DNA from: Rosistilla carotiformis
GTDB taxonomy: Bacteria; Planctomycetota; Planctomycetia; Pirellulales; Pirellulaceae
Direction: 5' to 3'
DNA: 64,000 nucleotides
Assembly (NCBI RefSeq): GCF_007753095.1
Contig: NZ_CP036348.1
Location: forward strand, 4,999,411 to 5,063,410
Numbering within the stretch: position 1 is the first letter of the stretch; the number at the start of each line of letters is the position of its first letter. The notes beneath the pieces were generated by a model. That model was not told the origin of the DNA. It saw only the letters and a program-made list of their open reading frames with translations, and made no database searches. Position numbers and translations under genes: made by a program. Positions 56,253 through 58,814 of this stretch are shown piece by piece.

Positions 56253-56675
56253 CGCGGCATTTTATCAGGAGGGCTCAAAAATCCGACACACCCAGTTTGT
56301 GTCCTATAGTTAGAGGATAGGCCCGGAAACCGCTTTTTGTATAGAGGATTGCAGCCTTCGATAGCGAACCAACCTCCGAGAGTTGATGTGAAAGAAAGCA
56401 GGCGATGGCATGCGAACAGGCGACCCGAACGACCGAAACTTCGTCACCGACAGCCTCAAGCATAGTTACCCTAACGGTAAAATCTCTGCCTGCGTTTCGA
56501 TTTTCTGCTCCCCTTCCATTGGTATTGCTTGCTGCTGCCTTACACGACAACTAGCATAAGGGTTCCATCCCACCGCCATTTTGCGCGGCACGGCAGCCGA
56601 CCACCCTCCCACTGGCATCCGGTCGACCGTCGCTTACAAAACACGAAGAGTCGCTTTCCCTGGAGACTGTTGATA
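56253..56675. other. Divergent intergenic region before the SHD1 gene
   Basis: A 423-base promoter region for the flippase-like gene (minus) and the SHD1 gene (plus). I found no supported gene and no strong hairpin. Confidence 0.45.
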
Positions 56676-58814
56676 ATGAATCGACGAATTCGCCGTCAGC
56701 TGAGCGTGATGATCGTCACGACGCTGACCGTCATCATGGCTGTGCCGCCTCATGCCGTTGCCGGTTGCTTTGCACCCTCGGCATCGAACTGCTGCTGCCC
56801 ATGCCCCGCGTCCTGCGCTCCCGTTTACTGTGCGCCCAGCTGCAGCACCGCGCCGGTCGTCTCCCGGTCGGCCTCCTGTGCCCCCGCGGTCGTCTCGTCG
56901 CCGGCTTGTGGAATCAGTACCGCCGCACCAGTCGTCTCGTCCAGCCTCCCCGCGTACCCAGCCGATAACTGCCCGATCTGCAAGACCGGATCGTACAGCG
57001 GTGATTCGACCGCGGAACCTCAAACGGTTCTCACCTTGCCGCCAGCGGCCGCAGAAGAAACCACTCCACCGCCAGCCCCCGAAGTCATTGGCGACTCCAC
57101 CGAGACTCCCGATGCCAAAGACGACCAGGTGATCCAACCTGCGACGGCGACCGAACCGATGCCGACCGAACCCAAACCTGCGCCGACGCCGGTCAATCCC
57201 GAACCGATGCCGACCGAAACGCCGAATCCTTTCAGCGAACGCAATGCCACGCCAGAGCCAGCCGAACCCAAAGCAGCTCCCGCGGAACCCAAGGCGGCTG
57301 CAGAGCCCAAAGCGGCTCCTGCCGAACCCAAGGCGGCTGCAGAGCCCAAAGCGGCTCCTGCCGAACCCAAGGCGGCTGCAGAGCCAAAAGCAGCTCCTGC
57401 TGAACCCAAGGCGGCCGCTGAGCCCAAACCAGCTCCTGCCGAACCCAAGGCGGCACCCGCTGAGCCCAAACCAGCTCCCGCCGAACCAACGCCTGCACCG
57501 GCAGAGCCCAAGGCAGCGCCAGCGGAACCAAAGCCCGCTGACGACGATCCCTTTGGAGCGCCTGCCGAACCAATGAAAGAAGCGCCTGCAGACGATCCCT
57601 TCGGTGCCGCTCCGGCCGAACCGAAGCCTGCCGCCGATCCAAAACCTGCTGCGGACGATCCCTTCGGGGCGGCACCTGCCGAACCGACCCCCGCCGCGGA
57701 TCCCAAACCAGCAGCCGACGATCCGTTTGGCGAAGTTCCAGCCGAACCGAAGCCTGCTGCAGACGATCCTTTTGGCGCGGCACCCGCCGAACCGATGAAG
57801 GACGCACCCGCGGACGACCTGTTCGATGCACCTGCGGAACCCAAGCCAGCAGCCGACGATCCCTTCGGGGCTCCCGCCGAACCAAAGCCTGCTGCGGATG
57901 ATCCTTTTGGCGCTCCCGCCGAACCGATGAAGGACGCACCCGCGGACGACCTGTTCGACGCGCCGGCCGACCCCAAACCGGCAGCCGACGATCCCTTCGG
58001 AGCTCCCGCCGAACCGATGACAGAAACGCCTGCCGACGACCTCTTCGGCGAGCCGAAGGCCGCTGAAGAACCCAAACCGGCAGCCGACGATCCCTTCGGA
58101 GCGGCACCGGCTGAACCGATGAAGGAAACGCCTGCGGACGATCCCTTTGGGGCCCCCGCTGAACCGAAGCCTGCCGCGGACGATCCGTTTGGAGCGGCAC
58201 CGGCTGAACCGATGAAGGACGCGCCCGCGGACGACTTGTTTGGCGTTCCAGGTGAACCAACGCCTGCGGATCCGAGTGATTTGTTCGGAGAGCCCGCCAA
58301 ACCTGCCGACGCCGCACCCGCGGACGATTTGTTTGGTGAACCTGCCAAGGAAGCCCCCATGGAAACCGACGACCTGTTTGGCGCCCCGCCCGCAGCAACC
58401 GATTCCGCGCCCGCAGACGACCTGTTCGGCACGCCACCGGCAGCAACCGAACCGGCTCCCGCGGACGATCTGTTCGGCACGCCTCCAGCAGACGACGCGG
58501 CTCCCGCAACGGAACCGGAACCTGCCGGTGGGCTCGACGACCTGTTTGGTGACCCCAAGCCGGCCGACGACAACAAAGAAGCGGCGGACGATCCGTTCGG
58601 CGACCTTTCGATGCGTGTCTGGAAGGACAACACCAGTACCTTTGAAACCGAAGGGCGACTGATCCTGATCGGAACCGATTTCGTGAAACTGCTGAAATCC
58701 AACGGTCGCACCTGCACCGTGCCGACGCGACGGTTGAGTCCTTTGGACGCGGATTACGTCGGACAGATCGCAAAATCGATCAACGGTCCAGTGATCCAAC
58801 TGGTCAGCAACTAG
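56676..58814 (+). CDS. Exported Pro/Ala-rich repeat protein with C-terminal SHD1 domain
   Basis: A 712-residue protein. ATG 56676 has GGAG ten bases upstream and begins a signal peptide (MNRRIRRQLSVMIVTTLTVI, cleavage near HAVAG). Next is a Cys-rich stretch (FAPSASNCCCPCPASC), then an acidic Pro/Ala linker containing N184-P-F. Residues 204-255 are four 13-residue repeats (EPKAAAEPKAAPA). From about 289 to 640 there are 22 short D[PL]F[GD] motifs: twelve DPFG, eight DLFG and two DLFD. The C terminus (646-712: MRVWKDNTSTFETEGRLI...) is an SHD1 domain, as in yeast Sla1. It ends in a perfect terminator. It probably assembles with itself or partners outside the cytoplasm. Confidence 0.82.
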   Translation: MNRRIRRQLSVMIVTTLTVIMAVPPHAVAGCFAPSASNCCCPCPASCAPVYCAPSCSTAPVVSRSASCAPAVVSSPACGISTAAPVVSSSLPAYPADNCPICKTGSYSGDSTAEPQTVLTLPPAAAEETTPPPAPEVIGDSTETPDAKDDQVIQPATATEPMPTEPKPAPTPVNPEPMPTETPNPFSERNATPEPAEPKAAPAEPKAAAEPKAAPAEPKAAAEPKAAPAEPKAAAEPKAAPAEPKAAAEPKPAPAEPKAAPAEPKPAPAEPTPAPAEPKAAPAEPKPADDDPFGAPAEPMKEAPADDPFGAAPAEPKPAADPKPAADDPFGAAPAEPTPAADPKPAADDPFGEVPAEPKPAADDPFGAAPAEPMKDAPADDLFDAPAEPKPAADDPFGAPAEPKPAADDPFGAPAEPMKDAPADDLFDAPADPKPAADDPFGAPAEPMTETPADDLFGEPKAAEEPKPAADDPFGAAPAEPMKETPADDPFGAPAEPKPAADDPFGAAPAEPMKDAPADDLFGVPGEPTPADPSDLFGEPAKPADAAPADDLFGEPAKEAPMETDDLFGAPPAATDSAPADDLFGTPPAATEPAPADDLFGTPPADDAAPATEPEPAGGLDDLFGDPKPADDNKEAADDPFGDLSMRVWKDNTSTFETEGRLILIGTDFVKLLKSNGRTCTVPTRRLSPLDADYVGQIAKSINGPVIQLVSN
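57285..57440 (+). repeat. Four tandem 39-base repeats
   Basis: Units start at 57285, 57324, 57363 and 57402. The first two are identical and the rest diverge at synonymous and a few other sites. They encode the EPKAAAEPKAAPA units of the SHD1 protein and continue downstream as less exact repeats. Confidence 0.85.

Follow-up and report, generated by a model that had tools for sequence, protein, structure and literature searches.

Yeast Sla1 carries SH3 domains alongside its SHD1 domain. Eps15-type DPF/NPF array adaptors are cytosolic, disordered chains with many short motifs that bind other receptors, and FG nucleoporins display regular FG repeats on a disordered chain in the eukaryotic nuclear pore. 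The signal recognized by the Sla1 SHD1 is NPFx(1,2)D, and DPFxD, NPF and DPF are described as less effective variants in a section of PMC7889276, making DPF a plausible ligand. A passage of PMC5906684 mentions extracellular proteins of bacteria that contain SHD1; beyond that, we found in the open-licence literature no paper on a bacterial or planctomycete Sla1 homology domain or NPF motif, which does not by itself establish novelty in print.

We analyzed a 64,000-nucleotide stretch of Rosistilla carotiformis DNA (the window; contig NZ_CP036348.1, positions 4,999,411 to 5,063,410), in which a gene at positions 56676..58814 encodes a 712-residue protein with an SHD1 domain behind 22 D[PL]F[GD] motifs. 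Unlike yeast Sla1, this protein is bacterial, apparently exported and carries many ligand-like motifs on the same chain as the domain, and no SH3 or other Sla1 domain was matched in it by Pfam up to an E value of 1. Like Eps15-type adaptors, it is a disordered chain bearing numerous short motifs of the DPF type, but it is apparently exported and has SHD1 attached; the likeness is likely convergent. The features shared with FG nucleoporins are regular FG repeats, a disordered chain and a match to PF13634, whereas the acidic D-x-F core, the C-terminal SHD1, the apparent export and the prokaryotic genome, with named relatives that are planctomycetes, set it apart. Other planctomycete SHD1 proteins, in the same and related genomes, have the same domain, but those examined are devoid of D-x-F arrays near it, and in two families of them NPF often follows shortly after SHD1 instead. 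We propose that the protein may be a multivalent exported scaffold of the planctomycete envelope, with SHD1 binding the D-x-F repeats of its own or neighboring chains, a reading to which we assign a probability of about 0.45.

A C-terminal SHD1 domain follows an array of D-x-F motifs

The gene and its parts are as follows, in window positions.

56676..58814, + strand: gene of the SHD1 / D-x-F-array protein, 712 residues plus stop (translation; orthologues)
56676..56762, + strand: putative signal peptide, residues 1-29 (MNRRIRRQLS...PHAVA, followed by GC), read by eye; orthologues are laid out similarly
56763..56981, + strand: Cys-rich N-terminal stretch, residues 30-102, with 12 of the protein's 13 Cys
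57225..57233, + strand: single NPF, residues 184-186 (motif count)
57546..58601, + strand: array of 22 D[PL]F[GD] motifs, residues 291-642 (motif count)
58608..58772, + strand: SHD1 domain (PF03983), residues 645-699 (Pfam, profile and structure comparisons)
58773..58811, + strand: C-terminal tail, residues 700-712, where model confidence is mostly low

A recount of the motifs and a Pfam search agree with an earlier note on this DNA, which had described an exported-type protein with 22 D[PL]F[GD] motifs, an NPF at residue 184 and a C-terminal SHD1. The SHD1 profile PF03983 matched the protein at 34.9 bits against a curated cut-off of 23.7 (E value, 1.4e-8); Nucleoporin_FG was the only other Pfam match up to an E value of 1, and an NCBIfam search gave no family. 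A profile of 15 orthologue domains matched the yeast Sla1 SHD1 structure 2hbp with an E value of 1.4e-11, the single SHD1 sequence of the protein did so with an E value of 0.015, and 2hbp ranked top in both structure searches. Residues 581-712 were also modeled with AlphaFold, using 48 of the 49 loci from named genomes described below; in this model, 49 residues within the SHD1 part reached a predicted local distance difference test score (pLDDT) of at least 90. By profile and model, the C-terminal domain has the Sla1 SHD1 fold. The Lys of its LLKxNG stretch is shared by all orthologue domains that have a residue at that column and aligns with a Sla1 Lys, which we take to be K525, required for NPFxD binding.

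The linker carrying the array is rich in Ala, Pro, Glu, Lys and Asp. Its 22 motifs comprise 12 DPFG, 8 DLFG and 2 DLFD, whereas shuffled linkers held a mean of 0.14 such motifs and a maximum of 3. As the DNA shows tandem repeats with periods of 18-132 bp, copy number alone is weak evidence. NPFx(1,2)D is not present; the NPF at residue 184 is followed by SERN, and the protein has the D[PL]F[GD] motifs instead. In 278 mechanically chosen non-SHD1 open reading frames near orthologues, some of which are perhaps not genes, D[LPI]F[GD] accounted for 6 and NPF for 2 of 4576 Phe.

A DNA pattern for DD[LPFS]FG gave 67 matches in the genome, 19 of them within the gene, compared with 5 for a backward-read control of the pattern. 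No further DD[LPFS]FG cluster was present among all 67 listed matches, the pattern missing some D-x-F; thus, should SHD1 read arrays of this kind, none was seen other than that on its own chain. We viewed 30 of the 48 matches outside the gene, many of which appeared by eye to be antisense or out of frame; at least one (L182) lies, again by eye, inside a seemingly real exported protein, which has a single copy.

Twelve Cys of the protein fall within residues 31-102, and the thirteenth is residue 680. Among the 68 orthologues not cut at their 5' end, 60 have at least four Cys (median, 10) in the 100 residues past the hydrophobic core, whose position was guessed by script, and in 60 the remaining linker has none. 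At column 35 of the domain alignment, in the TCTV stretch, Cys occurs in 55% of orthologue SHD1 domains and is not among the top residues of other SHD1s; this Cys could join disulfides.

The pairing of domain and motifs is kept in related planctomycetes

Within the same taxonomic family, 75 of 119 genomes, counting the own genome, gave relatives of the C-terminal 77 residues at an E value of at most 1e-5; the weakest of these relatives are probably paralogues. A scan of named genomes yielded 49 loci, all from planctomycetes by title or genus name and including Rhodopirellula, Stieleria, Rubripirellula, Roseiconus and Aeoliella; in 46 of them at least one D[LPIAMV]F lies upstream of SHD1. The Pirellulaceae SHD1 / D-x-F orthologue family is defined here, with an A1 limit of 65 bits chosen after viewing a two-peaked histogram. 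The 712-residue protein scores at least 65 bits with A1, has SHD1 near its C terminus and has D-x-F before it. SHD1 loci were taken from lists of the best-scoring matches or picked out of two search lists, without random sampling, and 252 domain matches were reduced to 206 by identical domain ends. One locus tabulation covers the 31 of 39 loci parsed by regular expression, the other 8 being uncounted.

As the idea of the earlier note requires, homologues keep the motifs. Among 80 distinct orthologues, 12 of which are cut at the 5' end, D[LPIAMV]F occurs before SHD1 at least once in 76, at least three times in 69 and at least five times in 56 (median, 8; maximum, 23). DLFG, DPFG and DIFG make up 539 of the 690 occurrences, and the median spacing is 20 residues. 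Within 60 residues before SHD1, DLF was found in 57 and DPF in 19 of the 80, each permutation in at most 7. Asp stands at position -2 of 493 out of 633 Phe in 50 distinct orthologue linkers, with about 70 expected from Asp frequency. The dominant middle residue of D-x-F is Leu in 62 proteins, Pro in 8, Ile in 4, Met in 1 and Ala in 1, with none in 4. D-x-F is thus kept across genera, whereas spacers, repeat units, flanks and the middle residue vary.

The lone NPF at residue 184, which the earlier note had counted among the look-alike ligands, was rejected as the key ligand because it is not a family feature: NPF lies within 60 residues before SHD1 in 1 of the 80 orthologues and after it in none. 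The copy is retained in three members of the genus (two of them congeners), and single copies occur in some other orthologues.

NPF accompanies other planctomycete SHD1 domains

Outside the orthologue family, D[LPI]F is nearly absent within 60 residues of SHD1 domains. NPF was found within 60 residues downstream of 28 of these 126 domains, accounting for 31 of the 130 Phe there; FNP, FPN, NFP, PFN and PNF were each found after none, and DPF after 2. The count was repeated with the same limit and patterns on a held-out set of 81 new domains, from which 4 orthologue-like ones were left out; 77 of its 80 loci came from other families of the order. NPF followed 16 of the remaining 77 domains (18 of 88 Phe), each permutation none and DPF 2. 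By single-linkage clustering, in which the largest cluster possibly lumps several families, NPF in the first set fell in 3 of 48 clusters, namely 16 of 35 members of one (mostly with N-terminal SHD1), 11 of 14 of another (mostly C-terminal) and one singleton. In the held-out set it fell in 3 of 28 clusters (14 of 28 members, 1 of 6 and one singleton).

The spacing and flanks of these motifs are variable. NPF was seen in C-terminal tails (e.g., ADNPFEP) or just past N-terminal SHD1 domains, and sometimes doubled (NPFKVAEDDNPF in L197). The own genome encodes three further SHD1 proteins, one of which, L001 (L001:1501-1710), ends in ADNPFEP; an SHD1 protein of this genome carries PQQ repeats. A tblastn search for SHD1 in plasmids gave no match, and among viral contigs 8 stretches were considered for SHD1 with NPF and none was confirmed. 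Together, the pairing with NPF in these families and the kept pairing with D-x-F in the orthologues support the view that SHD1 in bacteria reads [N/D]-x-F motifs, but do not prove it.

The SHD1 domain of the orthologues is more basic

The mean net charge of SHD1 was +2.1 in the orthologues (n = 80), compared with +0.57 in the NPF group (n = 28) and +0.47 in the others (n = 94; Mann-Whitney p, 4.6e-7), after 4 of the 126 other domains with only DPF or SPF had been left out. Arg or Lys dominates columns 16 and 26 in orthologue SHD1s and not in others, and the 60 residues before the domain have a mean charge of -11. A basic SHD1 would suit an acidic D-D-x-F ligand; the same is also expected if a basic end domain merely balances an acidic chain.

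Proposed function and competing explanations

As SHD1 is kept together with ligand-like motifs in related bacteria, the protein may self-associate outside the cytoplasm. In the proposed scaffold, the Cys/Pro-rich N terminus of the exported chain could form disulfides or anchor the chain, and the acidic Ala/Pro-rich linker would serve as a flexible spacer that displays numerous short [D/E]-D-[L/P/I]-F-[G/D] stickers. SHD1 at the C terminus, which is more basic than the SHD1s of other planctomycete proteins, would bind stickers of the same or a neighboring chain, yielding a reversible multivalent network in the envelope. Such a network may lie on the cell surface, as the earlier note suggested, or in the periplasm. 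The Cys/Pro composition fits a remark in PMC3035269, citing work on another species, that a planctomycete envelope resistant to sodium dodecyl sulfate consists of protein with much proline and cysteine, held by disulfides; the remark says nothing of the SHD1 / D-x-F protein. More broadly, SHD1 might be a bacterial [N/D]-x-F receptor as in yeast, acting outside the cytoplasm with one or two adjacent NPF in other families and, in the D-x-F family, building a self-assembling polymer in which each chain has one receptor, up to 23 stickers and an N terminus cross-linked by disulfides. We regard this extended version as possible and slightly more tentative. The earlier note's binding model is supported in part: the profile match, the motifs in homologues and the NPF after SHD1 in other planctomycete families favor it, and a role of the lone NPF is not supported.

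Several observations weigh against the scaffold. In the yeast ligand NPFx(1,2)D the acid follows Phe; here it precedes Phe, and most members have Leu, not Pro, before Phe, as D-L-F-G. The conserved Lys is not special to motif-bearing domains, the same column being 70% Lys in SHD1s without a following [NDS]PF and 32% Lys and 50% Arg in those of the NPF group. In the AlphaFold model of residues 581-712 the linker has a pLDDT of about 50-64 and does not dock confidently onto SHD1; its motif-holding blocks scored 64, 60 and 57 versus 55, 53 and 50 for the other blocks, a slight difference too weak to use. Four of the 80 orthologues lack the motif; of these four, two are truncated at the 5' end. 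NPF is also seen on the other side of SHD1, within 60 residues upstream of 3 of the 126 domains (FPN, 1) and of 5 of the 77 held-out domains (FNP, 1), and its confinement after SHD1 to few gene families implies few independent origins. Peptidoglycan has since reportedly been found in planctomycetes. The wall amino acids of P. brasiliensis listed in a passage of PMC4334474 include proline and not cysteine.

The main rivals are cohesion of the FG motifs independently of SHD1 and a bridging role between other partners and the protein. The xxFG motifs might cohere mutually like nucleoporin FG repeats into an extracytoplasmic gel while SHD1 serves otherwise, e.g., by binding another envelope part. 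Pfam Nucleoporin_FG (PF13634) indeed matched five stretches at 81.7 bits against a cut-off of 32.2, and the prevalence of DLFG, DPFG and DIFG and their spacing agree with such a gel. However, the match may be a low-complexity likeness, the linkers are strongly acidic, and D-x-F is kept more than FG: DLFD, DPFA and DLFS occur, and L063 and L075 have 11 and 9 DPF and no D.F[GD]. Arrays also accompany SHD1 throughout the set, which was itself found via SHD1, SHD1-less arrays having been sought in the own genome only. We consider such a gel unlikely. Bridging, in which the motifs dock an unrelated envelope receptor and SHD1 binds another ligand, perhaps the wall or the NPF tails found on paralogues with SHD1, gains from the three other SHD1 proteins of the genome, one with an NPF tail, from the NPF that follows SHD1 in a minority of domains of other families, and from the several unrelated receptors that bind eukaryotic DPF/DLF motifs. 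It appears doubtful, as no receptor candidate was found, neighboring genes are mostly kept only among congeners (two also near one further locus), and the kinase adjoining many orthologues sits elsewhere in the own genome.

The tandem repeats in the DNA would also be expected if the motifs were duplicated low-complexity filler without a ligand role. Yet D-x-F is retained across genera despite differing spacers, repeat units and middle residues, and D[LPI]F[GD] is far rarer in the background open reading frames, which makes mere expansion very improbable.

Gene neighborhood and antisense frame

Neighboring genes are conserved among congeners; beyond these, only GAPDH and PQQ-repeat genes recur, near one orthologue (L099). 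The window and the loci on long enough contigs made up 42 orthologue loci, or 37 distinct ones after removal of 5 duplicates; 25 of the 37 have a histidine kinase gene, divergent from and adjoining the orthologue where coordinates were compared. The kinase of L126 has the Pfam domains HAMP, HisKA and HATPase_c and a CxxCH in its sensor part. In the genus of the 712-residue protein the kinase is located elsewhere (L163, L195), and we rejected the neighborhood as a guide to function because the kinase is not in the locus in this genus. Genes resembling RNase HI and GrpB by eye often lie upstream of the orthologue in kinase loci (L095-L120 and others). A 721-residue antisense open frame (56634-58799, - strand) spans nearly the whole SHD1 / D-x-F gene and is most likely a by-product of GC-rich repeats.

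Significance

If true, our proposal would extend to exported proteins of bacteria a pair of receptor and short motif familiar from endocytosis in yeast. NPF offers a ligand hypothesis for other planctomycete SHD1 proteins, and the SHD1 / D-x-F protein is a specific candidate, and one that is cheap to test, for a protein network of the planctomycete envelope.
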